Assembly: GCF_022818495.1 (NCBI RefSeq)
Contig: NZ_CP089291.1
Span: 4,729,501 to 4,793,500 of the forward strand
Source of the DNA: Fodinisporobacter ferrooxydans
Lineage (GTDB): Bacteria > Bacillota > Bacilli > Tumebacillales > MYW30-H2
DNA: 64,000 nucleotides
Reading direction: 5' to 3'
Part shown: positions 20,664-54,593 of the stretch, piece by piece
Position numbering within the stretch: the stretch's first letter is position 1
Layout of the letters: the number at the start of each line of letters is the position of its first letter
Translations under genes and position numbers: made by a program
Notes under the pieces: model-generated
The model's input: the letters and a program-made list of their open reading frames with translations, nothing else
What the model was told of the DNA's origin: nothing
Database searches by the model: none

Positions 20664-21344
20664 TCAATTGTAACAGTCTTCGCCATTCTTGCAGTTATCA
20701 CTAAATAACCACTTTCAGTCCCCTTTGAACCGGGTCATCAATTGTAACATTCATCTCTCACAGGACACGCCCCATCGTTCAACGCCTTTCAGTCCCCTTT
20801 GAACCGGGTCATCAATTGTAACTGAATCATTGTAGGTATGTCCATTAAATACTGAATTAACTTTCAGTCCCCTTTGAACCGGGTCATCAATTGTAACTAT
20901 GGTGATTTTGTATCCAAACTCGGACAGAGCGCACTCTTTCAGTCCCCTTTGAACCGGGTCATCAATTGTAACAGGGGCGCTTGTGTGCTTGTGGGATGCT
21001 GTACATGTGCTTTCAGTCCCCTTTGAACCGGGTCATCAATTGTAACACGGCTATCCGCGCCGATTGCCCAACCATCTGCAAATCTTTCAGTCCCCTTTGA
21101 ACCGGGTCATCAATTGTAACCGAAGTGGAAGACAGGCTGTATGATGCGGTTCTTGTCATCTTTCAGTCCCCTTTGAACCGGGTCATCAATTGTAACTCAT
21201 CGTTATTCCAGGCGGCAATATCTTGATTTCCGTCCTTTCAGTCCCCTTTGAACCGGGTCATCAATTGTAACAACGAGCGTAATGGGAAAACCGATTGATT
21301 GGGCGCCCTTTCAGTCCCCTTTGAACCGGGTCATCAATTGTAAC
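20661..21344 (-). CRISPR. CRISPR array, nine intact 37-bp repeats plus a broken terminal one
   Basis: Identical 37-bp repeats start on the plus strand at 20712, 20786, 20861, 20936, 21010, 21084, 21160, 21235 and 21308. Spacers are 36-39 bp. Only 14 bases of a tenth repeat remain at 20661-20674, with one mismatch. In the minus orientation the repeat starts GTTACAATTGATGACCC and ends GGGGACTGAAAG, the usual form of a type I repeat whose last eight bases become the crRNA 5' handle. That, the decay at the left end and the AT-rich right flank put the leader on the right and transcription on the minus strand, the same as the cas genes. Confidence 0.97.
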
Positions 21345-21591: not shown

Positions 21592-22341
21592 CTATGATCT
21601 TTTGTCAGACAATCCAAGTGCCCATAAATAACTATCTAACATCCGCTCCACAGCTTCTGAAACCAATAATACTAGCGGCTCGACATTTCCTGTTTCATCT
21701 GCTCCTCTTAAAGCATTATAATAATTGGAACGATCCTCCTGACGAATAATTGCCGGTGGATAGTGATCCTGCATCAAAATCAGATTCATGAGTAGACGTG
21801 CAGTACGTCCGTTTCCATCTATAAAAGGATGAATATGTACAAATCGGTGATGAAAAGTTGCTGCTCTTTCAACCGGATGTAATGTTTTTCCTTCGTTATC
21901 AAGCCATTCAAGCAAATCTCGCATCAACCCCGGAACTAACGAATTCATCGGGGGAATATGAGGACTTCCTTGGATAAATACGTTAACAGTACGGTAGGCT
22001 CCTGCTTCACGTTCACGGATATTTTTTAAAATTAACTGATGAATTTGTTTGATTACAAACTCGCTGATCCGGGTATCCTTGCTAATAAGTTCTTCAATCA
22101 AGACTATAGCTTCCGCATGATTTATGACTTCAAAATGCTCTCGAAGAGATTTACCGCCTACTGTAATTCCTTCCAGAACTACCTTGGTTTCCGACAAAGT
22201 GAGAGTGTTTCCTTCAATTGCATTCGAATGATAAGTCCATTCCACTAGGAGATGTTCTTTTAAATTCTTTACAAGTGCTTCCGGCAAGGGCCTTTTCGAA
22301 TCTAACAGTTTCTTTTTTTCCTCAATCCGTCGAAAGTCCAT
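21592..22341 (-). CDS. Fic-domain protein with built-in inhibitory helix (class II)
   Basis: 249 residues. The Fic motif HPFIDGNGRTAR gives the catalytic histidine and nucleotide-binding residues of an AMPylating enzyme. The N-terminal helix has SNAIEGN, matching the inhibitory (S/T)xxxE(G/N) motif, so activity is probably self-restrained. The front also has a KEHLLVEWTYHSNAIEGN region common to Fic/DOC proteins. It lies between the array leader and cas5 on the same strand. A defence or toxin role is inference from location only. Confidence 0.92.
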   Translation of the reverse strand: MDFRRIEEKKKLLDSKRPLPEALVKNLKEHLLVEWTYHSNAIEGNTLTLSETKVVLEGITVGGKSLREHFEVINHAEAIVLIEELISKDTRISEFVIKQIHQLILKNIREREAGAYRTVNVFIQGSPHIPPMNSLVPGLMRDLLEWLDNEGKTLHPVERAATFHHRFVHIHPFIDGNGRTARLLMNLILMQDHYPPAIIRQEDRSNYYNALRGADETGNVEPLVLLVSEAVERMLDSYLWALGLSDKRS

Positions 22342-22413: not shown

Positions 22414-23112
22414 TTAAGACGATCCACTCGATTCACGTTTAAACCAAGTATAACCACGACTAGATGCAACCTGATGATAAGGAACAAAAACAGATTTCAT
22501 AATTCTATCTCGTCCTATTCGGGCAGCCGTATCATCAAAAGTATTGATACTAGGAAAAGTTGCTTTTGGTCCCATATCGTCAAGATATTGCATTATCACA
22601 TCACTGCTAAATTTACCATTTTCACCAAGAAAATAGCTAAACGTACTTCCCAAATATTCTTGGATCCCTTGACAAATAGGTTGTAAAAAACCCCCTCTCT
22701 TACCAAAATAGTTAACATGAAAGAATAAAAGTTTTAACTTATCAATATGATTTTGTGTCAAATTTTCTATTTTCACCGCAATTTTGAGTGTTCCATCGTA
22801 AAAAACAAATTCGCGAAACCCTACGGAAGTAATAAATGCTGGCCCTGCTTTTTTATCTTTTGGTTCCGTAAGAATTTTAATAAAACTGTTATTTACGACT
22901 GCCTGTTCAGGTGGTTCAAAACGAATTTCCAAATCACGAATCCAAGGGAATTCCAACGAAACATCGAGTCCCATTCGAAAAGCGGCATCCAATAGTGCCA
23001 TTTTAACACTATACATGGTTGGAATAAGATTGGTCTTACCTCCGGAACTCGTAGCAGACGAATTTCTTAATGAGAAAAGTGAAGTGTGCTGATACGTTGT
23101 CACCAGCCACAT
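22414..23112 (-). CDS. cas5: Cas5 (RAMP subunit of Cascade)
   Basis: 232 residues. The N-terminus (TSLFSLRNSSATSSGGKTN) and the later glycine-rich segment VNYFGKRGGF resemble Cas5 proteins of the type I-A/I-B group. Cas5 binds the crRNA 5' handle and caps the Cas7 backbone. It starts four bases after cas7. Identification rests on operon position and on these motifs; subtype not assigned. Confidence 0.8.
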   Translation of the reverse strand: MWLVTTYQHTSLFSLRNSSATSSGGKTNLIPTMYSVKMALLDAAFRMGLDVSLEFPWIRDLEIRFEPPEQAVVNNSFIKILTEPKDKKAGPAFITSVGFREFVFYDGTLKIAVKIENLTQNHIDKLKLLFFHVNYFGKRGGFLQPICQGIQEYLGSTFSYFLGENGKFSSDVIMQYLDDMGPKATFPSINTFDDTAARIGRDRIMKSVFVPYHQVASSRGYTWFKRESSGSS

Positions 23113-23116
23113 ATGA

Positions 23117-24061
23117 CTACCTCACTTGCTCGATGAGATCCGCCATAATTTTTGTAAACTCAGATTGGGACTCAAACTTATACGTTGTTATAGCATCTGA
23201 AAACAACCGATTCAGGTTTTCCTGAATTTTTTGAACTTCATCAAGATACGACCCATTCAAAGGACTAACTGTAGGAGCAGGTATGGCAGCAGTCGATGTT
23301 GTTACAATCCCTTGAAAATTGACGATATGCGGGAATTGGGTATTTCTATGGGCACCAAGCGGCCTAATAAAGGTCAGCAAAATACTCTCAAGCAGAGCCC
23401 GAGTTCGCTTTTTACGATCCTCATCAGTAATCTGGTATTCACGTTCAACATCATTAAACCCTACTCTTGATAATTCAGCATTCATAACAAGAGCATATTC
23501 ACCAGAGCTCGCAGGTCGATAAAAAATATTCTGTCCAAGATTTGCCCCTGATTCATCGCCAGAGCCTTGACCACGGTTGTTATCAAATTTAACGTGAAAA
23601 TAAGATTCAGTCCGAGTTTTCTCAGGAACTCCAACCAACCAACCAAATTCTACAGTAGACTTTCTTGGAGTCGAACGTCCACCCTGTGTGATCAAAACAC
23701 CTTCCAAATCATCCACCGCACAGTGTTGAAGAACTTTTTTCAATGTATCTCCAATCGCATTTTTATCGCCAAGAGATTTAAAAAACTCTGCATCCGCATT
23801 AATACGATTGGAATTAAACTTGGTACATCCTGCACAAAGTGGAAGTTCCTTTTCAAGAGCCAATCCATGAAGATGCTCAGCTTGGATATGCTTAAGCATA
23901 TCACCAGAAATCGCGTTTACAACTGTCGGTTCACCATTTTCGTCTACAATATGAACCATTCGCGTCTGTAATTGATTGCCTTCCGCCCCTTCATTATTCA
24001 AAGAGTGCATATCAATTGTTAATATCCCTGAAATAGAGAGAGATTGCATCAACATTGTCAT
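23117..24061 (-). CDS. cas7: Cas7 (DevR/Csa2-type Cascade backbone)
   Basis: 314 residues. ISGILTIDMHSLNNEGAEGN, AISGDMLKHIQAEHL and the cysteine pair LCAGC match the DevR/Csa2 branch of Cas7 (Pfam DevR), and ITQGGRSTPRKSTVEFGW follows the expected pattern. Several copies line the crRNA in the interference complex. The ATG overlaps the cas8 stop (ATGA). The I-A and I-B families share this Cas7 type. Confidence 0.9.
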   Translation of the reverse strand: MTMLMQSLSISGILTIDMHSLNNEGAEGNQLQTRMVHIVDENGEPTVVNAISGDMLKHIQAEHLHGLALEKELPLCAGCTKFNSNRINADAEFFKSLGDKNAIGDTLKKVLQHCAVDDLEGVLITQGGRSTPRKSTVEFGWLVGVPEKTRTESYFHVKFDNNRGQGSGDESGANLGQNIFYRPASSGEYALVMNAELSRVGFNDVEREYQITDEDRKKRTRALLESILLTFIRPLGAHRNTQFPHIVNFQGIVTTSTAAIPAPTVSPLNGSYLDEVQKIQENLNRLFSDAITTYKFESQSEFTKIMADLIEQVR

Positions 24062-25773
24062 ATTCCAACTTCCTCCTCGGTATAATCATTATCTTCATGT
24101 GTCTTATCATCTTTTGCCGAAGCAAAAGCGATCAGAAGCATAGCGATTGCTTCAGTTTCTTTTTGCCCTTTGTAGCGATCCAGCAACTCTCCAAATTGAC
24201 TTAATTCCTGCTCTGAAACCCGTTTACGGCGTCGTCCAGGCTTATCCCGAATCTGTTCCTCTCTTCGTGCATTTTCGTAGTTGAATTCATTTACAAATTC
24301 TGCTATAACGCATAGTAATTCTTCGCGAAATTTCGCTTTACGTTTGATTTCCTGAAACAAACCATATTTAATGTCAAAGACCTGTTGTCCTTTTGATTTC
24401 AGGTATTGCTCACTGACTGTAGCCTGTTTGATGGCTCGTGCAATCCCCCGGAATCCATCATTTTCAATAATCTCTTTAACAGGTAAACCTATTTTTGACA
24501 TTCTGAACAGCACCTCCAAATTTGACGATTGAAACGATCGAATGGGTCGATTTTTATCTCTTCGACTCATAATAAGTGGCCCATAACTCCCTAAAAATCT
24601 TAAAAAAACAATCCAATCCGAGGCAGAGAGAAAATCCCGATAGAGCTGAAGAAGCGACGCTTCTTCATGTTTGTCTTCATCTAATAATTGAAGGGCCTTT
24701 TTATGTTCTTCAATCAAGTTTGTCCATCTATTGATGTCGTTTTCATCGTAGATCTGAAACCAATCCGGTAGCCCAACTGAAGAAATATTGGACACCGGCC
24801 TTGCCGACCCCAAGGACTTAAAATAAGCTGTTTGTACCGAGGAAATAACGTCCCTGGGAGTCATTCCTTGGGGAGTGATATATGCCCATTCATCGATTTC
24901 CTTCTTTTCAGACTTCCCGAGAAGAAACGTAACCAAATCAAATACTGCAAAGATGTCGGCTTTACGTGAATTCCAGACAGGAGTCAACTCCAAACGGTTT
25001 AGAGTTTCCAGATTACCCATGCCAATATTTCCTGGGACGGGGACCATCATTTTGATGTCATCACCGATGGTATACCCCCATAGTACAACCTCAGACCCAA
25101 TAAACCGTAACCATTCTTCAAACCAGTCTGTGAAAACCGAAGGTAGGGATGCACGTGCCGCACTGTCAGGTTTGGGGCGATTGATTCCTTTTCCGATAGC
25201 AGGGTTGAATACCTGAACAGCCGGAATTTTTGGCCTAAATTTGGTATTGATATCGCCAGACAGTTGCCCAATTCCCAAGGAAGCTAATTTATTTTTCACA
25301 CTTTCAGCCAAATCATCTAAACTCGTGGACCATATCTCTTCGAAAAGTTTATTACGGACATTTATACCTTGTAAAATGTTTATTTTCTGGTATGAATAAA
25401 AAATTCTAGGCGGTTCCGGTAATTCCGAAAGATCTTGACCAGCTTTTTTCCGTTTTCTTGCTTCTCTTAAAGTATCTGCCCTTGCTTTATTTTCAATATA
25501 ATTAAACGTTCTTGCTCCTGCGGGCGGGGTTTCTTCTGGTTTTGTCTGTATAAAATAAAACAATGGTTCACGTTGTAATACTGAATAATCCGCCTGTTCC
25601 AGATCGATTGATTCAGCAAGTTTTACGCGAAAACTCCCTGACTCCTCGATAACCTCTGTCTCCAATGTTCCTCGGGAAATTGCCCATATCATCTTCGAGA
25701 GCCCTACGGCAGCCAAAGCATCTGCATATGTCCCAGTACGTTTTTGGATGTAAAATTGATTATACTTCGTCAT
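24058..25773 (-). CDS. cas8: Cas8-like large subunit, subtype not recognised
   Basis: 571 residues. No catalytic motif is visible. It is assigned by position (between cas3 and cas7 with overlaps on both sides), by size, and by an N-terminus (IQKRTGTYADALAAVGLSKM) like that of several Cas8 families. In Cascade this subunit reads the PAM and recruits Cas3. A separate small subunit (Cas11) gene is not present; in some type I-B systems it comes from an internal start within cas8. The protein lacks the CxxC-CxxC zinc finger of Cst1 types. The divergence is a reason not to force it into I-A or I-B. Confidence 0.7.
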   Translation of the reverse strand: MTKYNQFYIQKRTGTYADALAAVGLSKMIWAISRGTLETEVIEESGSFRVKLAESIDLEQADYSVLQREPLFYFIQTKPEETPPAGARTFNYIENKARADTLREARKRKKAGQDLSELPEPPRIFYSYQKINILQGINVRNKLFEEIWSTSLDDLAESVKNKLASLGIGQLSGDINTKFRPKIPAVQVFNPAIGKGINRPKPDSAARASLPSVFTDWFEEWLRFIGSEVVLWGYTIGDDIKMMVPVPGNIGMGNLETLNRLELTPVWNSRKADIFAVFDLVTFLLGKSEKKEIDEWAYITPQGMTPRDVISSVQTAYFKSLGSARPVSNISSVGLPDWFQIYDENDINRWTNLIEEHKKALQLLDEDKHEEASLLQLYRDFLSASDWIVFLRFLGSYGPLIMSRRDKNRPIRSFQSSNLEVLFRMSKIGLPVKEIIENDGFRGIARAIKQATVSEQYLKSKGQQVFDIKYGLFQEIKRKAKFREELLCVIAEFVNEFNYENARREEQIRDKPGRRRKRVSEQELSQFGELLDRYKGQKETEAIAMLLIAFASAKDDKTHEDNDYTEEEVGI

Positions 25774-28159
25774 TCTTCCCCTCCAATCCCAACTTATTAT
25801 TGTGATTCTGCTGGGATCTACGATCTGATAGCCGTAATCTTCTCACCAAGTACCAATAAAACGCCAATACATTTCGATCTTGTAACCATGTAACAAGATT
25901 ATCAAAATGATGCGATTCATTTTGCGGTTTTAAAAATGGTTCATAATGTAGCCCCTGTAAACTACGAATCACATGTTCCCTTGCACCTTTGGCAAAGACA
26001 ATCGGTTCTGACCTTTCGCTGAAAGCATTGTGATGACGTAAAATAGCAACTAATAGCGGGACCGCTATCTTTTTATCACGGAATTCTTTTCCTACCCATT
26101 CCTGCAGTGCAATTGCACCTTCACCAGCGTGAGGTGGCCTTTTGTAAGAACTTTTGTTGTTTGCGCGTCGTTCAAACTGATTTTCTGCATCAAAATCAGT
26201 ATGAGCTAGAAATTCATGTTCTTGCTTGTTTTTGACGTCCGCTTGCCAAAGTCGGACTTTCCGCTGAAATTCAACACCTAATTTCCCTACATCATGCAAT
26301 GCTGTGGTTAGTTCAGATAATTCATCCACTTTTTGTGCACTTAGTTGAAAAGTTGATGCTATATATTTCGATGCAACACTGTACTTTTCCTTTTCTTTCC
26401 TGTGCACATCCCTAACTTCTTTTATATGCTCCATATACGTTTCCCTTAAATAGCTATATCGTTCAAAAGCGGTTCCAGATTCATCTAAGAGATATTTTGA
26501 GTAGGTAAGTCCAGATTCTCCAAGCAACAGTCCTACTATATTGTGATAATTTGCAATCTGCGGAGCCAGAACCAGCAGTGTAACCTGCAGAGCCTCTTGT
26601 GTTCGTTTTATCGGTCGCCATTGAATCTCTTCCCCATAGTCTTGGCTGTCGGGAAACTCGGGAATAAAGACAAGTTTACTTTCTTCCCATTGATATTTAT
26701 TATCTTCAGCTAAAGTATGCAAAAAATAACGGAGCCTCCCACGACTTATCGATACAACCTGTGGTTTTTTTCGCAAATCCAATTCTTTCGGATCGGGGTG
26801 AAGTATTATGGAAACATTGTCAATGCTTCTGACGAGTCCGCTTGTATCCGCATTTCCGGTGATCAACGCATTCGTTATTTCTTTACTCCGTATGAACAAG
26901 TCTCTTATAGTTTCAGTAATTCTCTTTTGATCAATTGGTTCATGGACCTCTGATATCCAAGTTTCTTCAAGTTCGGGAGTCATTTTCGCATTCGGAGGCA
27001 GGTGTTGCAATAGTTCTTCCGTCTTCAACATTATTTTTATATCTTGTTGGTCGCCATTTTTTGAGGCATAAGGAAGAAAATTATATTCATCTCCTTCTCT
27101 TACCGAATAGACATAAACATTGCCCTCCTCATCGGGAAAACGGGCACATCTGCCAATTCGCTGTATGAGAGAGTTTGCTGGACATAAATCTGTTAATAGA
27201 ACATCTGCAGAAATGTCCAGCCCAGCTTCAACAACTTGAGTTGCTATAAGAATACCCTCCTCAGTGGAATTCTTGGAAAATATTTTAAGTATCCACTTCT
27301 CGACTTCTTCACGATGGTCTTGAAACATAGTAGAGTGAAGAACTTTCACTTCAGGTTTTATATTTGCACCAGACAGTTGCTCATCCAATTGGAAAAAAAG
27401 TTGTTGAGCTTTCTCTACCCTGTTTACCACAACAAGAGTTCTTCCACCTTGATGTTTTCTGACTATTTCACTTGCAGATAACGGGACGTTGGACCAAGTG
27501 ATATAACGTGTACAGTTGGGAAGCATGTTCTGTTCCTCTTTTGTAAGGGCTACAGCTTGTCCCTTCAAATGTCGTTCCAAGGTTTGTACCACTGTTTGCG
27601 GAGCCGTTGCCGTCATGACAAGAAAACGGATATAGGGAGATAGACGATCCATCATGTCAAGGAAAGTCGGCAATGCCTCTCGAAACGACAGCAAATGAAA
27701 CTCATCAATAACTATGTAAGACCCGATTAGGGCTCCCGGAGAAATGTTTGCCGATCGTTTGGAGGTTCCATAAGGCAAGCCAATATACGAACTTAGCAGT
27801 TGATCGATCGTTGTGAAAATAACATCCCCCTCAAAGAAAGAGTCGTTAGGCTGGTTACCCATTTGAATTGTAGAAGTCAGTTCGAATCTTGAAATAACTG
27901 ACTTTGTTGATTCGTACAATGAAGAAGCTAAAGTCCTTAATGGAAGAGCGTAGATCAACCGATCTGCAAAAGAAAGCTCCTTACGACGAGCGTATAAAAA
28001 TGGAAATAATGCTGTCATTGTTTTCCCCGATCCAGTAGGGGCGGTCAAAACCACATTGCGACCTTTAAGTAGAAGCTCAGCAACACGTAATTGGAAGTCG
28101 TAAGGTTTGATTGGCTTTCTATTTTTATTGGATAATAATTCCACAAAAGTTTCTTTCAT
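25760..28159 (-). CDS. cas3: Cas3 helicase-nuclease with C-terminal HD domain
   Basis: 799 residues. Helicase motifs come first: APTGSGKT (Walker A, about residue 42), VIDEFHLL (motif II), TATAP (III) and QRIGRCARF (VI). The HD nuclease signature ALHDVGKLG and ILRHHNAF follow in the last quarter. Most Cas3 proteins have the HD domain first; the reverse order is known for some type I lineages. Cas3 degrades DNA bound by Cascade. It overlaps cas8 by 14 bases. Upstream lies the creTA-like unit. Confidence 0.95.
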   Translation of the reverse strand: MKETFVELLSNKNRKPIKPYDFQLRVAELLLKGRNVVLTAPTGSGKTMTALFPFLYARRKELSFADRLIYALPLRTLASSLYESTKSVISRFELTSTIQMGNQPNDSFFEGDVIFTTIDQLLSSYIGLPYGTSKRSANISPGALIGSYIVIDEFHLLSFREALPTFLDMMDRLSPYIRFLVMTATAPQTVVQTLERHLKGQAVALTKEEQNMLPNCTRYITWSNVPLSASEIVRKHQGGRTLVVVNRVEKAQQLFFQLDEQLSGANIKPEVKVLHSTMFQDHREEVEKWILKIFSKNSTEEGILIATQVVEAGLDISADVLLTDLCPANSLIQRIGRCARFPDEEGNVYVYSVREGDEYNFLPYASKNGDQQDIKIMLKTEELLQHLPPNAKMTPELEETWISEVHEPIDQKRITETIRDLFIRSKEITNALITGNADTSGLVRSIDNVSIILHPDPKELDLRKKPQVVSISRGRLRYFLHTLAEDNKYQWEESKLVFIPEFPDSQDYGEEIQWRPIKRTQEALQVTLLVLAPQIANYHNIVGLLLGESGLTYSKYLLDESGTAFERYSYLRETYMEHIKEVRDVHRKEKEKYSVASKYIASTFQLSAQKVDELSELTTALHDVGKLGVEFQRKVRLWQADVKNKQEHEFLAHTDFDAENQFERRANNKSSYKRPPHAGEGAIALQEWVGKEFRDKKIAVPLLVAILRHHNAFSERSEPIVFAKGAREHVIRSLQGLHYEPFLKPQNESHHFDNLVTWLQDRNVLAFYWYLVRRLRLSDRRSQQNHNNKLGLEGKNDEV

Positions 28160-28505: not shown

Positions 28506-29474
28506 CTAATGATGAACTGTTACTCGGGTTCTCCCGAGATCAAAAACCGTATTCTTTCCTATATGAATAATCTCCGCTACACGCAGCCACGGCAGAAACT
28601 CCCCTACCTCACCTTCATATTGTGCCCACCCAACGATGCCACCCATCTTCATTTTAGAGTCTTGGCGAGCCGAGTAGCGATCATAGTCAACCCATTTAAC
28701 TTCTTTTCTGACAAGTTGAATTTGTTCCGACTTTAAGATTAGGTTTTTAATATCCCATTTGGGCGTTATATCATGATGAAATTGGAGTAAGCCAGTCATT
28801 CGTCGTAGGATATTCCGAATGAGTAATGGGAAAGATGGATTGTCAGAATATATACCCTGTGATTTAATTCGTAATGGTGTTTCAAAAAAGACCATCAGCC
28901 GACCTTGTTCCGGTGCCTGACTCTTAGCTCCTTCCCATATATCCCTTCCTGTCAGGACAATGGGAGAGTGAAATGTTACATTCTCTTCATTCAGAAACAT
29001 GGTTCGATGGTTACCCATTTTCATATCACGATTTTCAACGTGAACTAAACGGTAGCCCTTTCTCCCCCTGCCGATTCCCTGTTCACCTAGTTCCTTAAAT
29101 GTACTGACAAATAAAGGAGCATAATGAATTGCTTTACCAAACAACAGCAGATTAACAGAAAGAAGATCACCTGGCTCATAAATGGTTTGTTTATCAGTAG
29201 GCACTTCCAAAATATATGGACGTGGAACCTGCTCATACCCCCCCATAAATGACTCTTCGTGGTTAGGTCTTGTTTCAAAGATATAAGGATAAGCACAGTA
29301 AGTTAACGCCGAACAAGCTCCGCAATCTTCTCCAGGATTTATACAAGAAAGTCTTTTAAATACATGTCCAAATGCCCCACGAAAGGTTGAGGCTTTCCAA
29401 GCAGGCAATTCCAACCCCCGCTCCCCGGCCTGCAGCGTAAACCGATATTTCGCAACTCTCAATTCATCAAACAA
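28506..29474 (-). CDS. cas6: Cas6 pre-crRNA endoribonuclease
   Basis: 322 residues starting with TTG at 29474, eight bases after AGGAGG; no ATG in frame is placed as well. N-terminal part has FRGAFGHVFKRL and a cysteine cluster CGACSALTYC, the middle carries a glycine-rich RAMP loop GIGRGRKGYRL, and the end has GWAQYEGEVG and HIGKNTVFDLGR, matching the C-terminal Cas6 domain, with Asp where most members have Gly. Cas6 cuts repeats in the array transcript to release crRNAs. A degenerate repeat lies in its own leader. Confidence 0.9.
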   Translation of the reverse strand: MFDELRVAKYRFTLQAGERGLELPAWKASTFRGAFGHVFKRLSCINPGEDCGACSALTYCAYPYIFETRPNHEESFMGGYEQVPRPYILEVPTDKQTIYEPGDLLSVNLLLFGKAIHYAPLFVSTFKELGEQGIGRGRKGYRLVHVENRDMKMGNHRTMFLNEENVTFHSPIVLTGRDIWEGAKSQAPEQGRLMVFFETPLRIKSQGIYSDNPSFPLLIRNILRRMTGLLQFHHDITPKWDIKNLILKSEQIQLVRKEVKWVDYDRYSARQDSKMKMGGIVGWAQYEGEVGEFLPWLRVAEIIHIGKNTVFDLGRTRVTVHH

Positions 29475-29592: not shown

Positions 29593-32500
29593 CTACCCAA
29601 TGCAATCCGAGTTGGGTGCCTTCAAATTCTTCTCCTCATTCCATACCTCATACATCTTCCCTAACAGCCTGTCCCTTGCCTCTCGATCACAATCCACTTC
29701 CACAAAATTTCCTGTTGCCGTCAGATACAAGCCAGCACGATCAACTTTCCAGCCCAGAAGCTGTTCCACCACATGGGTATAAATTTGGACTTGTGGTGTA
29801 TACCTCTCCACCACCTGAAGTATATCCTTCTCACTTTGACACCCGTGCGTCTTAAAATCTACCAGTGTGACTCCTCCATCATCCCGCAGCCACACTTTGT
29901 CAATAACCCCATTCAACAGCAATCCATCTTCCCCAAAAAACCGAATGGCAAAAGGAAGTTCACTGTAGACAACTTGGGCTTTCCGGCATTCTGTTTGAAG
30001 TTCCCCCTTAAGATACGAATCAATCTCGGGACACAACCGCTGCCAAGCAAGGTCGCACATCTCTTTACTGGTTATTCCCAAAGCAGCGAGTGCTGCTTTC
30101 AAATGACGGGTCCGAATCGTTTCAAGATCATCGTGCGGCCCTAGAAACTCCAATACAGTATGCAATAAATGCCCCCACTCATGCCCTTCGAGATTGGATC
30201 GTCCAAAGTGTCTCGCTGGTAAAAATGATTTACTGGTTTCCCAAGTCTCCCCGGCAAGTATATCCACCCACTCTGTTACACTCCAAATCCGTGCGGCAAA
30301 CCCGGTATTTACATTCCGATATTCCTTAACAATTTCCTTGCCCGTGATTCGCCCAAGTTCTGCGTGTGAGACTGGGGATCTCATGGGAGTGCTAGGTGCC
30401 ATCTTCGCCATCTGCACCGTTCGCTTCATTTCAGTGGTAAGGGCTACTTCTTCAAAATGAGGTGTCGCAGTTTTTCCAAGTGTTTTCCCAAGTCGGGTTG
30501 CCGAAGTTACATTCACTCGTGGCACTAAATCCACCTTATTACGAATTTGCAATTTCCACCCATTCTTCTCTACTATCCGCTCCTGAAGGCCTTCCCGCAG
30601 TTCAGGAACCAGAAACTGCAACCAGTCAAACCAGTTGGAGCACTCGTCTAATGATTCCTTCTCCGCGAAGCTAGAAGCAACTCCAGAAAAGATCAATCGT
30701 TCTTCAGCTCTGGTCATTGCCACATAGAATAACCTCTTTTGCTCGGAAACCATTGCATTTCTTTCTTCTTCCCGGGCTTTTGTAAAACTTAGGGACGGCA
30801 GCCAAGTCTTCTTGTTTTCATCGTAATACTGGGCCGTTAGTCCCCATGTATCGCTGAGATGCAGCCTTCCCATTTTCGTTGTAAAGCGGTGCGTGAGATC
30901 CGGAACAATAACAATGGGAAATTCAAGCCCTTTGGCCGCATGGATGGTCATAAACCGAACTGCCCCTTTGGTAACATCGGTCTGAATCTCCCCGTCTTTT
31001 TCTTCCTGATTTTGAAGTTGCTCCCACCAAGCGAGCAAATCGGAAAGGTGGATTTTTCCCCTTTTTTCGGCTTCCTCCGCCAACCGCACAATGCGATCAA
31101 AACTTGTCCCACCAAGCTTTTCTGCGATTGATTCTCCGTAAAGCACGTGATACAGCCAATCGGCTAACCCCATTTCTGCATACCGTTCTCGAAGGTGTGT
31201 TAAAAATTCTCTGGCCTGTACTAAACGCTCCCTATCTTCTTCCGATACCCTATTATCTTGCAATCCCCTGTTTTCTTCCAATACACTTGACTCTCCATCT
31301 CTTGACCTTCCATCCCTTGACTCTCCATCCCTAAAGAACTCCAGAAACCCTTTATGAAGTCCGTTATTTCTGGCTAATTGGCTGATTCCATCATCTGTCA
31401 TTTCGACCAAGGGTCCCCGCAGATATCCCAATAAAGCCAATTCATCTCCTGGATCGTCCACCAGTCGAAGCAGATGATGCAAATCCCGGACCTCCTGCCG
31501 TTCCCAATATCCGCTGCCCGCGTACACCACATGCGGGATGCCGTATTTCGACAAAGCATTTTCGTATTTCTCCAAATGAGTTCGAGTTTGTAGAAGGATT
31601 CCGATGTTCCCATAATGGGCTGACCCCATCTCCAGGATTCTTCGGGCCACAAGTTCCGCTTCTGCTTTATGCGGATCTTTATCTTCAGTAAGTACAGGAA
31701 TCAACATTTCCACAACAGGTTCTTCTTCGAACGGCTGCTTAAGCCCGGCCACCACTCCATCATCTCCGAACAAAGCCCGAGTCATATCCGATGCAAAAGC
31801 TACCAACGATGGACACGATCTGAAATTTTCCTTCAGTTGGATATAAGAATCCGACTTTTCAAGCTGGAGGCGCAACCTTTCAAACCCTTTGACATCCGCC
31901 CCGCGAAACCGATAAATGGACTGACGGAAATCCCCAACCATGAACAAAGAGGCTGTACCCGCAGCACCTTCCTCCAAATGTTCCAGCAACGATTGCTGAA
32001 GAGGATTGGTATCTTGATACTCATCCACCAGGATATGATTGTAACGTTTCCCATAGTAAGCGCGGGCTTCCTTGGATTCATGGAGAACATGGTGGGCTTT
32101 TCTCTGCAAATCTGCAAAATCGCACCACCCATTCGTTTCTTTCTCCTTGCTGTAGGCCAAATCCATCTGCTCCAGCAGCGCAAGAATTTCTTTTCGTACA
32201 ACAGCGGTCTGATCTTCCAACAATTCTTGCCAAAGATTTTCATCTTTCAATCGCGTCAATCTTTCAAAAATCGGCTTGGCTTCTCTAGCCACACTTCGGG
32301 TGACTTGGGAAAACAGTGCCTTGAGTCCGCTTTTCATTTGGGAAATAGAAGCATTTGCGTCCTCCTTATCATTCTCATCTTCCCTGCATACGTGGATTGC
32401 TCTTATAGGGAGTTGGCGCCAAATATCAAGTATCGTACTCATGCGTGCAACCGACCCGCTCGCTGTAATGGTCCCGGATTGATGGAGCCTTTCCATGTGT

Positions 32501-33063
32501 TCCATCACCCGCAGCAATTCCTCTTCAAGAACTACTCTTAGGGATTCAATCGTGCTTTCGGTTCTTTCGCCGATGGATTTGAAATCCCAGGGCTGCTCCC
32601 GCCAACACTCATAAAGCGAAACCAACAGTCCACAGGCCAAATCCAGGCCGCATGCTTCCGCCCAACGAAGCACGCTTGGCAATCCCGATTCATAAAGCAA
32701 CCGTTCTGTAAGGCTCTTCAACAATAGTTGTGCAGTGGTTTCATCAATCAAGGAAAATGAGGGATCCACATCGGCAAGCAGCGGATTTTCCCGAACGATA
32801 CGGCCACAGAAACGATGAAAGGTCAGAATCGTCACCTGATTCGATCCCAGCTTTTGTTCTACTCGTTCCTTCATTTCCAGCGCGGCCTGATCCGTAAATG
32901 TAAGTGCAAGGATGTTTTCCGGCGAGATTCCTTTTTCATTCACCAAATAGCTTATTCTTTCTGTCAAGACTCGGGTCTTGCCGGAACCTGCCCCCGCCGC
33001 CACCAGAATTCGAGATCCTTTTGCCCGAATAGCTAATTTTTGCGATTCTGTCAGGTAGCTCAT
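29593..33063 (-). CDS. addA: AddA-like UvrD/RecB-type helicase-nuclease
   Basis: 1156 residues. All superfamily 1 helicase motifs are seen: VAAGAGSGKTRVLTERI (I), LTFTDQAA (Ia), LVDEYQDTN (II), GDFRQSIYRFRGAD (III), IHAAKGLEFP (V) and YVAMTRAEERL (VI). The C-terminal RecB nuclease has GHEWGHLLH, GVIDKVW, VDFKTHG and QVQIYTHVV. Together with the AddB-like partner it would process double-strand DNA ends. Slightly short for Bacillus AddA (about 1,230). Start overlaps the addB stop. Three 15-bp repeats inside encode RDGES-type residues. Whether it is the cell's only AddA cannot be told here. Confidence 0.93.
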   Translation of the reverse strand: MSYLTESQKLAIRAKGSRILVAAGAGSGKTRVLTERISYLVNEKGISPENILALTFTDQAALEMKERVEQKLGSNQVTILTFHRFCGRIVRENPLLADVDPSFSLIDETTAQLLLKSLTERLLYESGLPSVLRWAEACGLDLACGLLVSLYECWREQPWDFKSIGERTESTIESLRVVLEEELLRVMEHMERLHQSGTITASGSVARMSTILDIWRQLPIRAIHVCREDENDKEDANASISQMKSGLKALFSQVTRSVAREAKPIFERLTRLKDENLWQELLEDQTAVVRKEILALLEQMDLAYSKEKETNGWCDFADLQRKAHHVLHESKEARAYYGKRYNHILVDEYQDTNPLQQSLLEHLEEGAAGTASLFMVGDFRQSIYRFRGADVKGFERLRLQLEKSDSYIQLKENFRSCPSLVAFASDMTRALFGDDGVVAGLKQPFEEEPVVEMLIPVLTEDKDPHKAEAELVARRILEMGSAHYGNIGILLQTRTHLEKYENALSKYGIPHVVYAGSGYWERQEVRDLHHLLRLVDDPGDELALLGYLRGPLVEMTDDGISQLARNNGLHKGFLEFFRDGESRDGRSRDGESSVLEENRGLQDNRVSEEDRERLVQAREFLTHLRERYAEMGLADWLYHVLYGESIAEKLGGTSFDRIVRLAEEAEKRGKIHLSDLLAWWEQLQNQEEKDGEIQTDVTKGAVRFMTIHAAKGLEFPIVIVPDLTHRFTTKMGRLHLSDTWGLTAQYYDENKKTWLPSLSFTKAREEERNAMVSEQKRLFYVAMTRAEERLIFSGVASSFAEKESLDECSNWFDWLQFLVPELREGLQERIVEKNGWKLQIRNKVDLVPRVNVTSATRLGKTLGKTATPHFEEVALTTEMKRTVQMAKMAPSTPMRSPVSHAELGRITGKEIVKEYRNVNTGFAARIWSVTEWVDILAGETWETSKSFLPARHFGRSNLEGHEWGHLLHTVLEFLGPHDDLETIRTRHLKAALAALGITSKEMCDLAWQRLCPEIDSYLKGELQTECRKAQVVYSELPFAIRFFGEDGLLLNGVIDKVWLRDDGGVTLVDFKTHGCQSEKDILQVVERYTPQVQIYTHVVEQLLGWKVDRAGLYLTATGNFVEVDCDREARDRLLGKMYEVWNEEKNLKAPNSDCIG

Positions 33064-35798
33064 ACAACCTCCCCCCTTCGATAACCATATTCATCTCGCC
33101 TACAAATCCCTAGGAACGAACAATTCTGGCATTCAGAACGTTCTCGGGGACGAGGCGCCACATCCCCCTTTAACATTTGCTTTACCAGCTCAAACAGTTG
33201 GTCATTGATTCGCTCGGCATACTCAGCAAAATCTTCCGGGGAATCAAATCCCACATTTCCTCCTTCCCCTGGATTCCTGACAACTGCGAATTGTCCCCCC
33301 AAAGGGCTAATCCCCGTTCCCGATAATTGAGAGTATGCCAGCAAATACAAAGCCATTTGCAGATCCCGTCCGTGTTCAATGTCCCTCCGAGACGGTCCCG
33401 ATGAAAGCTTATAATCTAACACCCAAAATCCCTCTTTGCCAAGATCCACTCGATCAATGCTACCTGATACCCATAATTCCAAGCCTTCCCATTTTAGTAG
33501 CAGTGGTTGCTCACTGGAGGAAACGGCCATCTTCTCAGCATGGACACGTCCAAATCCCCATTCCGCGAGATGTTGAATCCCTTCTTGTTTCAGAAGTCCC
33601 CCACCTTCTCTAGCTGCAAATTCGAGCAAATCCCGCTTTAGCATCCGGCATTGTACTTCCCACTTCGGACCGGAGAATCCATACATACTTTCCAACCGCC
33701 TGAATTCTTCTTCCACCAAAAATTCCGCCCGTTGGGTAAGTTCTTCCTTTGAAAAGACAGGGTTCTCAACAAGTTCCCGAAAAACTCGGTGGAGTAAGCT
33801 TCCTTTATCTATGGGCAGAAGACCATTTTTCCGATAAATTCTTTCACCAACATGGAGAACACCGCTAGCCCAGTATTTGAAAGGACATTTGGCATATGTA
33901 TTGATTCCCGTGACCGAAATCGGTTTATGCTGATCAAAAAATTGAACCGGTGTAGTATCGCGATAAAGATCTTTCTTCGGTAATCTAATTACATTTACAA
34001 TACGTTCCTGATATCCTAACCATTCTGTCACGTACCTAGATAAAGTGGTTGCATGCCCCCGTTCATTCCGAAGCGAACTAAACAATACAAGTTTCTCTCC
34101 CCCTGCGGATACCGCCCATTCAAAAAGCTTACGATCCTCCAGTTCCTGTTTGCTGGCATTCGGGATTTTCAGCCCAAATTCAGCCTCCTCCCGTTTGCAT
34201 AAATCCCAGATCCAATGAGGATCAAACGAACGCGGCCATACATCCTCAATGAGTCCAAGAACATAGACTTTCGGAAACGTAACTCCGTATATTTCATCCG
34301 TGTTGTACACTTGAATTCCATTTTCTTCCCTCCCAATTGGCAACATGGCTGTTGAAAGCCGTTCTGTTAACCATTTCATAAAGCGTTCAAGAGATATCTT
34401 CCGTCCCGCTTCGACAGGAAATGCCATCACAATTTCATAACGTGTCCGAATACAATTTCGAAGACTCTCATAATGCAATACCTGTAAGCTGTCATTTCGT
34501 GAGCGAAGAATGGTTCGTTCGTCTTTTTCAATAAAAGAAAGTAAATGATCCAGGTAATTGCCCCATGAATCACGCTCAGCTATGTGTTGAGTTATCCGGT
34601 TAATTTGTACCAGGAACCTAAACCACTTCCTCGCGGACACCCGTCGTTGTTCAACCAGTACTGTATCTCCATCGCCATCTAAATACTCCAAACGAATTTT
34701 GCTTCTTGCCAAATTCCCGCGAAAAAGAGTCATCCAATTACTGAATCCTGTCAAAACTCCCGATTCCTCTATTATTTTTCTACCCCAGGCAATCTCTTCT
34801 TCCAATAAACCTTCGAACGCTCCATGCAACCGAGCGCATTTCAACAGTGTTTCTCTTTCCCAATCCTTTTTTCTCAATTCCAGCAATGATAAAATTCTTT
34901 GCGAAACTGAAAGATTCAACATGGGGACATTTTTTGTGCCATGAACCTTTATACCTTTGCTGTAGAGTTCTCTTTTCACTAACTGTGAATAGTAGGAATT
35001 GGGTGTTACAATCAGAATTTCATCTTCCCGATACCCTAAGCTCATTTGGCGTTGAATATCAGAACTTGCCACACGAACTTCCTCGTAAGCCGTGTTTCCA
35101 TACTTCAGACGAACCCTATCCGATTTGGCAGACCAATTGTCCTCCAAGGGATGAAGAGTAAATGACTCCGGAATCGCACTTCTGACAACTTCCAGGAAGC
35201 GTTGCAATTCTGGGCTATCCGGAAAAACTCCTTCCATAATCACCATTTCCCCCAATTGAGTACACTTGTCTTGTTCTTCCTCAACAATCCCGCTCGCGAT
35301 TTGAAAGACCTGCTCAGTTTCTTTATAGGGAAAATCTAATCGACTTAGACAAATCAAATAGTTTTCATAGATACTGGTCAACTCTCTCAAAACAGGATCT
35401 TTTGTCTTCTTTAACAATGAAAGGCACTCCCTGCCTCCTCCTTTCTCTAGATCCTCAATCCATAAAGCGATGGATCTATACATCCCCGGATATTTCAATC
35501 CTGTTCGCAGGTGATTCACTTGACCCTGTCCATCCATAGACAACAGCACACTTTCCACAAGATCCTGTCGGGTTGCCTGATCGATCCGAACATACGCTTT
35601 TCCGCTTGCTTCGAGTATGTGATCAGCCAACTGATTCGGAGTCGTCCAATAAATCCCTATATAACCTCCTGTCAGCTGCAAAAACTGCTGTTTTCGTTGT
35701 TCAATCAGCAGGGGATGACTCCCTATGAACAGAACCTGTTTTCGTTCCCGTAGTGCTTTTGCCAACGTCCCCATACATACATCATTACCGTACATCAT
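33060..35798 (-). CDS. addB: AddB-like nuclease subunit without Walker A motif
   Basis: 912 residues from the ATG at 35798, preceded six bases away by AGGAGGT; an upstream in-frame ATG (35837) has no such site. The C-terminal RecB-type nuclease has GSIDRVD, VLDYKLSSG and DLQMALYLLAY, and four iron-sulfur cysteines (AKCPFKYW and CQNCSFLGIC). Bacillus AddB is about 1,160 residues and keeps an N-terminal Walker A, whereas here the corresponding stretch (YGNDVCMGTLAKAL) lacks it. The ribosome binding site lies within the last codons of the cas4 relic. Overlaps the AddA-like gene (ATGA). Confidence 0.88.
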   Translation of the reverse strand: MMYGNDVCMGTLAKALRERKQVLFIGSHPLLIEQRKQQFLQLTGGYIGIYWTTPNQLADHILEASGKAYVRIDQATRQDLVESVLLSMDGQGQVNHLRTGLKYPGMYRSIALWIEDLEKGGGRECLSLLKKTKDPVLRELTSIYENYLICLSRLDFPYKETEQVFQIASGIVEEEQDKCTQLGEMVIMEGVFPDSPELQRFLEVVRSAIPESFTLHPLEDNWSAKSDRVRLKYGNTAYEEVRVASSDIQRQMSLGYREDEILIVTPNSYYSQLVKRELYSKGIKVHGTKNVPMLNLSVSQRILSLLELRKKDWERETLLKCARLHGAFEGLLEEEIAWGRKIIEESGVLTGFSNWMTLFRGNLARSKIRLEYLDGDGDTVLVEQRRVSARKWFRFLVQINRITQHIAERDSWGNYLDHLLSFIEKDERTILRSRNDSLQVLHYESLRNCIRTRYEIVMAFPVEAGRKISLERFMKWLTERLSTAMLPIGREENGIQVYNTDEIYGVTFPKVYVLGLIEDVWPRSFDPHWIWDLCKREEAEFGLKIPNASKQELEDRKLFEWAVSAGGEKLVLFSSLRNERGHATTLSRYVTEWLGYQERIVNVIRLPKKDLYRDTTPVQFFDQHKPISVTGINTYAKCPFKYWASGVLHVGERIYRKNGLLPIDKGSLLHRVFRELVENPVFSKEELTQRAEFLVEEEFRRLESMYGFSGPKWEVQCRMLKRDLLEFAAREGGGLLKQEGIQHLAEWGFGRVHAEKMAVSSSEQPLLLKWEGLELWVSGSIDRVDLGKEGFWVLDYKLSSGPSRRDIEHGRDLQMALYLLAYSQLSGTGISPLGGQFAVVRNPGEGGNVGFDSPEDFAEYAERINDQLFELVKQMLKGDVAPRPRERSECQNCSFLGICRRDEYGYRRGEVV

Positions 35799-36090
35799 TG
35801 CAGTACCTCCTGTACTCGCAATCAGTACAACGGGCACGCGACTTGGGTTCAGGGAATGTTTCTTCCCGCATCAGACGCCGAATCGCTGTCACCAACGGAA
35901 TCCCAAGTTCTTCGGCCAGGCGCGGGCCGGTCTGGGCAGATCCGTTGTCTACGCTCATTTGGCCGCCAAAAATCAGCTCATACCGCTCTTGGCGCGCAAA
36001 CGCTGCAAGCATTTTTACGGCTACGAATTCATCTTCAAATAGCGCTTCATCATCAATCCGGACAGCCTTATCGATGTCAATAAAAAATTT
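35785..36090 (-). pseudogene. Chimeric relic: EtfB middle part joined to a Cas4 C-terminus
   Basis: One open frame starts DKAVRIDDEALFEDEF, runs through ELIFGGQMSVDNGSAQTGPR (the flavoprotein EtfB pattern around residues 85-135), and then changes to REETFPEPKSRARCTDC followed by EYRRYCNDVR and a stop. The last part has the C-x2-C-x5-C ending typical of Cas4 iron-sulfur nucleases. Neither gene is complete: EtfB lacks both ends and Cas4 lacks its nuclease core. The stop at 35785 overlaps the AddB-like start. A deletion that fused the two genes is the simplest reading. Translation through it may still supply coupling for addB. Confidence 0.75.
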
Positions 36091-52763: not shown

Positions 52764-54593
52764 ATGGCTGCAGATACATTGAAAAGAATTTTACTTGGCA
52801 GGCCCTTAAAGTCAAGTGAAATGGAAGCAGAAAAAATGCCCATATGGAAGGCACTGCCAATTCTTTCCTCGGATGCAATCTCCTCTGTTGCATACGGGAC
52901 AGAACAGATACTAATCGAGCTTGCAACCGTTGGTGCAGTAGCATTTAACTTCGCTTTGCCCGTAGCGCTTGTCATTTTATTGCTTATAGCAATCTTGGTC
53001 ATTAGTTATCGGCAGGTCATCCAAGCATATCCGCAAGGCGGCGGAGCGTATATGGTGACAAAAGACAACTTGGGTGAAATAGCCGGGAGATTGACCGGTG
53101 TATCGTTGTTGATCGATTACACGCTTACCGTTGCAGTATCCGTTTCTGCCGGAGTGCAAGCGATCACATCCGCATTTCCATTTACTGTACCCTATATTGT
53201 CCCAATTGCACTGGCGCTTGTCTGGATTATGGTCTGGCTGAATCTGCGGGGAACATCCGAATCGGGCACGATATTCGCGTTTCCAACTTACTTTTTCATT
53301 GGATGTATGCTGCTGATCATCGCGAAAGGTTTCTATGATTTGGTACTTCATGGGGCGCAAAGCATTCATCCCGTACATGTTCCAACGGCTATACCTGCAG
53401 GTCTATCATTATTTGTTCTTTTAAAAGCATTTTCATCCGGATGTTCGGCAGTAACAGGGATTGAAGCAATATCCGATGCGGTTCCGCATTTTCGCACACC
53501 TTCTCAGCGCAACGCGAAAATGACGTTAGCCACATTAGGGATATTGCTTGCCATTATTTTTGGCGGCATTACGATTCTGTCTCTGGCATATCGCGTTGCA
53601 CCGGATCCGACCGGGCATACATCCGTGCTTTCGATGGTGACAGAGCAAGCGTATGGACGCGGTGCTTTTTATTTTGCCACACAGATTGCTACTACATTGG
53701 TTCTTACATTGGCAGCCAACACAAGTTTCAACGGTTTTCCGATTTTAACATCCATTATGGCGCAAGATAAAAATTTTCCGCGCATGTTTGCGAACCGCGG
53801 CGATCGTCTTTCCTTCCATTATGGGATCATCACACTCGGTATCTTATCGAGTATTTTATTGATTATTTTTAACGGAAAAACGGATCAATTGATCCCGCTC
53901 TATGCGATCGGCGTGTTCTTGTCCTTTACCATGGCACAAACCGGCCTTGTGCGCAAATGGCTGAAAGAACGCCAGAAAGGATGGACCGGAAAAATCTTCA
54001 TTAATGGTCTGGGCGCCATCGTTACATGTTTCGTATTAGCTATTTTTTGCATCACCAAATTTCTCGAAGGGGCCTGGATCGTCGTTTGCCTTATACCGGT
54101 GTTCCTGCTATTCATTACAAAAATTCATAGACATTATGATGAAGTGGCAAAACAGTTGCGAATCGACTTGCAGGATCCATTGCCGCAAAAAGGAACGGTT
54201 ATTATTGTTCCTGTAGCGGGGATCCATCGGGTTGTGGCTTCGACGATCGCATACGCCAAAACCCTTTCGCCAAATGTCGTCGCATTTTACGTCGCGTTTT
54301 CCGAAGAAGATGCAAGAAGAATGGAAGAGAAATGGGAACAATGGAATCCTGGTGTCAGACTTGTCATTTTCAAATCCCGGTACCGAACGATAACAAAACC
54401 GCTGGTTGAGTTTATTGAGCGTGTTGATTCAAGAGTTGCCAACCGGGAAACGGTGATGGTGCTTTTGCCGCAATTTGTAACCCGTAAATGGTGGCAGCAG
54501 TTTTTGCACAATCAATCCGCATTTCGGATTCGGTCCTTGTTGCTTTCGCGAAAAGATGTCGTAATCGCAACTGTTCCTTACCATTTGCAATAA
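52764..54593 (+). CDS. kimA: KimA-type potassium transporter (APC superfamily)
   Basis: 609 residues, the length of Bacillus KimA (607). IWKALPILSSDAISSVAYGT, SYRQVIQAYPQGGGAYMVTK and LTVAVSVSAGVQAITSAFP match the family closely; a soluble C-terminal domain follows the 12 helices (IDLQDPLPQKGTVIIVP). It imports K+ with protons in that family, and is inhibited by c-di-AMP in Bacillus. First of two tandem paralogues. Confidence 0.87.
   Translation: MAADTLKRILLGRPLKSSEMEAEKMPIWKALPILSSDAISSVAYGTEQILIELATVGAVAFNFALPVALVILLLIAILVISYRQVIQAYPQGGGAYMVTKDNLGEIAGRLTGVSLLIDYTLTVAVSVSAGVQAITSAFPFTVPYIVPIALALVWIMVWLNLRGTSESGTIFAFPTYFFIGCMLLIIAKGFYDLVLHGAQSIHPVHVPTAIPAGLSLFVLLKAFSSGCSAVTGIEAISDAVPHFRTPSQRNAKMTLATLGILLAIIFGGITILSLAYRVAPDPTGHTSVLSMVTEQAYGRGAFYFATQIATTLVLTLAANTSFNGFPILTSIMAQDKNFPRMFANRGDRLSFHYGIITLGILSSILLIIFNGKTDQLIPLYAIGVFLSFTMAQTGLVRKWLKERQKGWTGKIFINGLGAIVTCFVLAIFCITKFLEGAWIVVCLIPVFLLFITKIHRHYDEVAKQLRIDLQDPLPQKGTVIIVPVAGIHRVVASTIAYAKTLSPNVVAFYVAFSEEDARRMEEKWEQWNPGVRLVIFKSRYRTITKPLVEFIERVDSRVANRETVMVLLPQFVTRKWWQQFLHNQSAFRIRSLLLSRKDVVIATVPYHLQ

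Follow-up and report, generated by a model that had tools for sequence, protein, structure and literature searches.

A putative CRISPR-dedicated AddAB-type helicase-nuclease encoded between cas4 and cas6 in a few bacterial genomes

A rare group of CRISPR systems has an AddAB pair of its own beside the adaptation genes, and this pair may feed DNA into the CRISPR memory. The pair studied here lies in a stretch of 64,000 nt of Fodinisporobacter ferrooxydans (assembly GCF_022818495.1, contig NZ_CP089291.1, positions 4,729,501-4,793,500, forward strand), analysed at its full length and called the window below. The reading we favour, and hold to be somewhat better than even, is that a paralogue of the repair enzyme was recruited once between cas4 and cas6, where it would act as a CRISPR-dedicated AddAB-type helicase-nuclease supplying prespacers. 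The evidence comes from four loci, one of them cut by a contig end.

That the repair enzymes RecBCD and AddAB supply spacer precursors from DNA breaks is stated in passages of PMC9419969 and PMC8616872 (the latter citing Modell 2017), and a passage of PMC10212523 says that type I-D prespacers are fragments made by repair enzymes. RecBCD/AddAB is known to provide such fragments from outside the CRISPR system; a CRISPR system with its own copy, if true, would mean that the supply step was worth internalising. It would also provide a genetically separate and removable handle, by which repair and memory-feeding become testable apart in one cell, a separation that is hard where one enzyme has both roles. 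In the portions of the open full-text literature covered, supplementary tables excepted, an addAB pair within a cas operon was not found described. PMC10910872 counts 188 modules and gives UvrD associations in the portions of its text and figure legend consulted, and an addAB pair in a cas operon could be among them.

Results

The two genes are intact, overlap each other by 4 nt, and lie directly upstream of cas6 on the same strand (Table 1), an arrangement the earlier note had described from the letters alone. The AddB-like open frame spans 33060-35837 on the minus strand, and its ATG start was placed by eye. A motif search of the AddA-like protein returned motifs at 23, 53, 346, 375, 412, 707, 779 and 1052, which we take to be those of an SF1 helicase and a nuclease; the C-terminal nuclease motif expected of an AddA is among them. 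The AddB-like protein ends, as an AddB should, in a PD-(D/E)XK nuclease with cysteines in the arrangement C...CxxCx5C (YAKCPF, CQNCSFLGIC), the four of which presumably bind an Fe-S cluster.

Table 1. Features of the CRISPR locus in the window (positions counted from its first letter)
Feature	Position	Strand	Remarks
CRISPR array	20712..21344	.	nine 37-nt repeats, eight spacers
cas5a	22414..23112	-	PADLOC Cas5a 1.5e-74
cas7 (DevR/Csa2)	23117..24061	-	profile matches
cas8a	24058..25773	-	PADLOC Cas8a 1.2e-54
cas3 (helicase, then HD nuclease)	25760..28159	-	profile matches; Walker A present
cas6	28506..29474	-	PADLOC Cas6 1.7e-102
CRISPR-linked AddA-like helicase-nuclease	29593..33063	-	1156 aa; UvrD-helicase 9.1e-65, addA_Gpos 8.8e-107
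CRISPR-linked AddB-like protein	33060..35798	-	912 aa; PDDEXK_1 4.3e-28, addB_Gpos 1.7e-16
cas4 relic	35785..35883	-	last 32 codons and stop; overlaps addB start; matches T. avium Cas4 tail
etfB-like fragment	35884..36075	-	fused in frame to cas4 relic; about 51% identity to genome frames

The N-terminal two thirds of the AddB-like protein have no significant Pfam match, UvrD_C appearing only at E 0.05, and the ADDB_N domain is absent from the Pfam listing at E<=1 for all three full-length CRISPR AddB proteins; the genome's other AddB has ADDB_N at 8.9e-5, itself below the Pfam cut-off. Recognition of Chi is a task of the N-terminal part of AddB in AddAB enzymes. The earlier estimate that the protein is about 250 residues shorter than Bacillus AddB agrees with the lengths, 912 aa against 1166 aa in the solved chain. 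The same note had pointed to a missing Walker A motif. The absence stands, but its value as a distinguishing mark had to be given up, since searches for the pattern in the N-terminal 200 and 120 residues found Walker A to be missing also in 17 of the 19 comparison AddB proteins, the genome's other copy included (one of the 17, that of G010, the Bacillota MAG DeMMO6_24, is a contig-cut fragment that lacks the N-terminus). The window pair falls below the NCBIfam equivalog cut-offs (addA_Gpos 358.4 against 707.65 bits, addB_Gpos 59.1 against 903.7), and so does the other addAB pair of the genome. An AlphaFold model of the AddB-like protein reached a pLDDT of 44.5, too poor for use. The CxxCx5C motif was seen in all four CRISPR AddB proteins and in 9 of the 19 comparison ones; the genome's other AddB (G000, L033 9654-13010) is without it.

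A search for a second addAB pair, proposed in the earlier note, did find one, at about 4.712-4.719 Mb, which puts it roughly 40 kb away from the CRISPR pair; the latter is thus not the genome's sole AddAB. The second pair adjoins a gene for a calcineurin-like phosphoesterase and one for a large AAA/SMC-type ATPase, which we take to be sbcD-sbcC. Between its addA and the sbcD-like gene, units of 13 bp (CAATCTCATGTGT and near copies) run at L033 5953-6082. The three other genomes with a CRISPR pair each have a separate addAB pair as well, and in Brevibacillus parabrevis the AddA of that pair exceeds the equivalog cut-off with 1283 bits. The CRISPR pair could instead be a nuclease that acts on its own against phages or as a back-up in repair, for instance a spare copy for times when phage proteins block the main AddAB, and that merely shares an operon with the cas genes. 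The additional pair in four of four genomes fits such an arrangement, and so does the fact that the AddA-like protein matches GajB and similar helicases from other defence systems. We nevertheless think it improbable, for all four clade members occupy the same position in a cas operon, no high-scoring member was met outside one among the genomes searched, and the cas4 overlap recurs in three loci.

In both the AddA and the AddB tree the four CRISPR rows form one clade (100/100 in each) apart from 19 comparison rows, among which is the other addAB copy of all four genomes with a CRISPR pair; the comparison of AddB with its housekeeping counterparts had been suggested before. The contrary outcome named at that time, a sole addAB pair grouping with housekeeping AddAB of close relatives, agrees neither with the second pair nor with either tree. 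The 19 comparison pairs were drawn from genomes with clear hits, not at random; G003, with no AddA match at threshold, was left out, and two rows of the AddB tree (the CRISPR and comparison copies of G010) are truncated at contig ends. How the CRISPR clade is placed at depth is unsure, given the long-branch warning that treekit issued for two Brevibacillus-family comparison rows against the CRISPR rows.

The surroundings of the comparison pairs served as a control. Within 18-20 kb around 18 of the 19 (G010, on an 8.8 kb contig, was omitted), 38 Cas queries matched no cas1, cas2, cas3, cas5, cas7 or cas8 and no array was found; thirteen of the 18 had no match whatever. Four gave a weak cas4 match, which by its coordinates lies inside the AddA frame, and in G005 some 50 residues were weakly similar to cas6 (39% identity, E 1e-4).

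The effector of the window locus is type I-A by the Cas8a and Cas5a models, and Cas8a, Cas7, Cas5a, Cas3, Cas6 and an array are all present. The locus has no cas1 or cas2, and of cas4 only the tail. This tail, IRRLMREETFPEPKSRARCTDCEYRRYCNDVR up to the stop, corresponds to the tail of the intact Cas4 of Tumebacillus avium, IRNMMRNEAFPDPKTRARCGDCEYRRYCNDIR up to the stop, and makes up the final 32 codons of a 101-codon open frame upstream of addB. What precedes it in the frame shares about 51% identity with each of two other frames of the genome and 43% with one more, all of which we presume to be etfB. Since one open frame runs from this etfB-like fragment into the cas4 tail, cas1, cas2 and cas4 appear to have been lost through rearrangement, and the loss may be recent.

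The start of addB lies within the 3′ end of cas4, at the same place in the window, in T. avium and in B. parabrevis, and is preceded by AGGAGG in the first two and by CGGAGA in the third. The earlier note's recognition of a cas4 relic around the addB start is thus borne out, and so is its deduction that addB once followed cas4 directly, since the ATG sits inside the cas4 tail just as in the two relatives.

Recurrence of the order cas4-addB-addA-cas6 had been put forward as a further check, and it was found in two genomes, those of B. parabrevis NRRL NRS 605 (G355) and T. avium AR23208 (G013), with addB-addA-cas6 in three when G010 is counted; in four of four loci addB-addA stands directly upstream of cas6. 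The type I-A locus of B. parabrevis, with its adaptation genes present, reads cas1-cas2-cas4-addB-addA-cas6-cas3-cas8a-cas7-cas5a and is flanked by arrays, and the type I-D locus of T. avium reads cas1-cas2-cas4-addB-addA-cas6-cas10d-cas11d-cas7-cas5-cas3, plus an array. That of G010 consists of an addB cut by the contig end, addA, cas6, a WYL regulator gene and cas3; its Cas3 runs off the contig and no NCBIfam model exceeded the cut-off for it.

Members are few. A single-protein query found a high-scoring one in 3 of 61 genomes of relatives, and an alignment query in 4 of 398 genomes of the class, at 521 bits or more, with 15 further class genomes at 75-121 bits, the range of other AddB proteins. 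The family of B. parabrevis has a member in one of 39 genomes. The phylum sample gave one in 398, the window genome itself, and a weaker match of 106 bits in G423, where the gene is at the edge of a 5.9-kb contig whose two other large frames were viewed by eye only. A first contig scan with a single-protein query found no loci, and a second found nine, namely the three known relatives and six weaker ones (25-32% identity over the best segment), four of which had no array found nearby.

These numbers leave some room for a chance passenger, a repair pair that came into a CRISPR locus by drift and is unused, as 4 of 398 class genomes is indeed rare. Such an origin is highly improbable, since the catalytic motifs are intact across the CRISPR AddAB at 32-55% identity, and the position is the same in four families of bacteria from two orders and with two effector subtypes. 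Nothing points to plasmids or viruses as carriers: the plasmid collection gave no match to the AddB-like protein, the two patterns used to search viral contigs found no relatives of it, and the 996 plasmid records matching the AddA-like protein were all below 60% identity (the 15 listed ones at 23-32%).

Between the type I-A locus of B. parabrevis and the type I-D locus of T. avium, the proteins of one block are clearly homologous throughout, cas1 at 65% identity, cas2 at 68%, cas4 at 59%, addA at 42%, addB at 32% and cas6 at 43%. Beyond that block, cas8/cas10d, cas7 and cas5 gave no significant BLAST match (the best being cas7, E 0.006), and the match of cas3 was weak and confined to the helicase. 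Judged by identity, addB changes fastest within the block, which could reflect weak constraint.

By Cas1, the nearest relatives at E<=1e-80 are in 8 of the 398 genomes of the class. Two of the eight have addAB, and neither addA nor addB was matched within the stretches examined around the other six. In two of these, the sister type I-A loci G020 and G043, the order is the same and cas6 is the next gene after cas4, the gap between stop-to-stop frames being about 60 nt and about 30 nt, respectively. G036 has the same genes in a different order, G014 has another layout, G052 has csa1 after cas4, and G002 matches only by cas1 and a shortened cas2. Since G020, G043 and G036 have the layout without addAB, the pair is unnecessary for cas1-cas2-cas4-cas6 with a I-A effector. 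In the simplest history suggested by these gene orders, addB-addA would have entered an adaptation/cas6 block once, between its cas4 and cas6, and the block would later have come to stand beside different effectors.

JetABCD-type (Wadjet) genes lie beside cas1 in two genomes of this Cas1 cluster: JetB-C-D just upstream of cas1 in T. avium (L035 225-6885), and JetA-B-C-D after cas1-cas2 in G002 (L108 4805-13214), where an array is also adjacent.

The trees of the single genes do not agree. The addA of the window groups with that of G010 (97/97) and its cas6 with that of B. parabrevis (98/99); the exchanged groupings are rejected by AU tests (p 0.014 for addA with B. parabrevis, p 0.003 for cas6 with G010), the groups having been picked after the trees were seen. 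In the AddB tree the grouping of the window with G010 reaches 85/71 only, in the same direction as AddA. This discordance indicates that addAB and the effector side are not bound together, and judging from the trees addAB has probably been exchanged separately from cas6 and the effector. The four rows with addAB stay together in the Cas6 tree (95/95) and the two such rows in the Cas4 tree (83/81); in the Cas1 tree the two are not separated from G002 and the long-branched G052.

Discussion

The earlier note had spoken of a dedicated end-processing module for adaptation or for interference. That the pair is dedicated to CRISPR is well supported, by the second pair in the genome, the separate 100/100 clade and the order cas4-addB-addA-cas6 in two other genomes; the choice between adaptation and interference stays a matter of inference. 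Adaptation would be favoured by the order of the genes, by the overlap of addB and cas4, and by the pair having been kept when the effector changed. In the mechanism that we infer from these arrangements, the AddA-AddB complex would load on free double-stranded ends, either of injected linear phage DNA or of breaks made by Cas3, AddA would unwind the DNA, both nuclease domains would cut the strands, and Cas4-Cas1-Cas2 would receive the fragments, trim them and insert them as spacers, with the overlap of cas4 and addB helping joint production of the proteins. A pair that adjoins cas4, overlaps it and was kept when the effector changed would be best explained as a dedicated supplier of Cas4-Cas1-Cas2.

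Alternatively, AddAB could be an interference helper, completing the degradation of DNA cut or nicked by Cas3 (or Cas3-Cas10d) and so enlarging the kill. The window locus speaks for this, as its addAB is intact in spite of the missing cas1, cas2 and cas4, and forms one gene row with cas6-cas3-cas8a-cas7-cas5; taken by itself, the window pair fits an interference role equally well. With its integrase genes gone, it would be either a leftover or active only in degradation. Even so, we consider an interference role unlikely: addAB has been retained beside both I-A and I-D effectors, which are unrelated to each other, it stands on the adaptation side of cas6, its addA tree is discordant with that of cas6, and the loss of the adaptation genes in the window may be recent.

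A more specific form of prespacer supply can be imagined, in which the accessory AddAB pair would be a dedicated and perhaps Chi-blind generator of prespacers for Cas4-Cas1-Cas2 and would belong to a mobile cassette, cas1-cas2-cas4-addB-addA-cas6, moving among type I effectors and perhaps replacing Csa1, the second Cas4-type nuclease of other I-A systems. This fuller version is a plausible conjecture that we place a little short of even.

The resemblance to the AddAB of Bacillota (Bacillus, PDB 3u44/3u4q) lies in AddB being followed by an overlapping AddA, in the SF1 helicase and nuclease of AddA, and in the PD-(D/E)XK nuclease with CxxCx5C of AddB; unlike the Bacillus pair, the window pair is encoded between cas4 (a relic) and cas6, and belongs to a clade of its own with an AddB that is shorter and in which neither Walker A nor ADDB_N was found. 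Its locus shares with the sister type I-A loci G020 and G043 an array of 37-nt repeats and the order cas1-cas2-cas4-cas6-cas3-cas8a-cas7-cas5, except that the CRISPR-AddAB loci have addB-addA between cas4 and cas6, and that the window has lost the first three genes. Type I-A loci with Csa1, such as G052, also have a second PD-(D/E)XK nuclease gene directly after cas4; in the CRISPR-AddAB loci this second nuclease is an AddB with a helicase partner. That AddB has taken the place of Csa1 is speculation. In G052 it is the gene of a Csa1-type second Cas4 (L109 7433-8593) that occupies the place of addB, directly after cas4.

UvrD-Cas4 fusions and uvrD/cas4-like pairs, as described in passages of PMC5704561, likewise link a UvrD-type helicase to a Cas4-like nuclease, but the neighbours given for both are genes of type III restriction, Dcm/Vsr genes or genes without a role in defence, and they lie outside cas operons. 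Similarly, PMC10910872 describes an AddB-like nuclease with an inactivated helicase domain and an adjacent array, although there the repeat arrays are non-CRISPR, the loci are without cas genes and AddA is not mentioned in the portions consulted.

As to the remaining CRISPR equipment of F. ferrooxydans, the window array is the only site in the genome with its repeat, up to three mismatches being allowed. The sole Cas1 match is a Cas4-Cas1 fusion in a second CRISPR locus at 2.14 Mb (L034 8758 to about 16400), which has 72 copies of a different repeat and gave no AddA or AddB matches. Spacers of the window array, of part of the T. avium array and of two of the several arrays of B. parabrevis had no match in phage records. 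Within the window, cas5a and the array are separated by a gene of the Fic family (21592-22341), on the strand of the cas genes, and two 77-nt copies, 77% alike and about 2 kb apart (53103-53179 and 55138-55214), sit in two neighbouring large plus-strand open frames, perhaps tandem paralogues.
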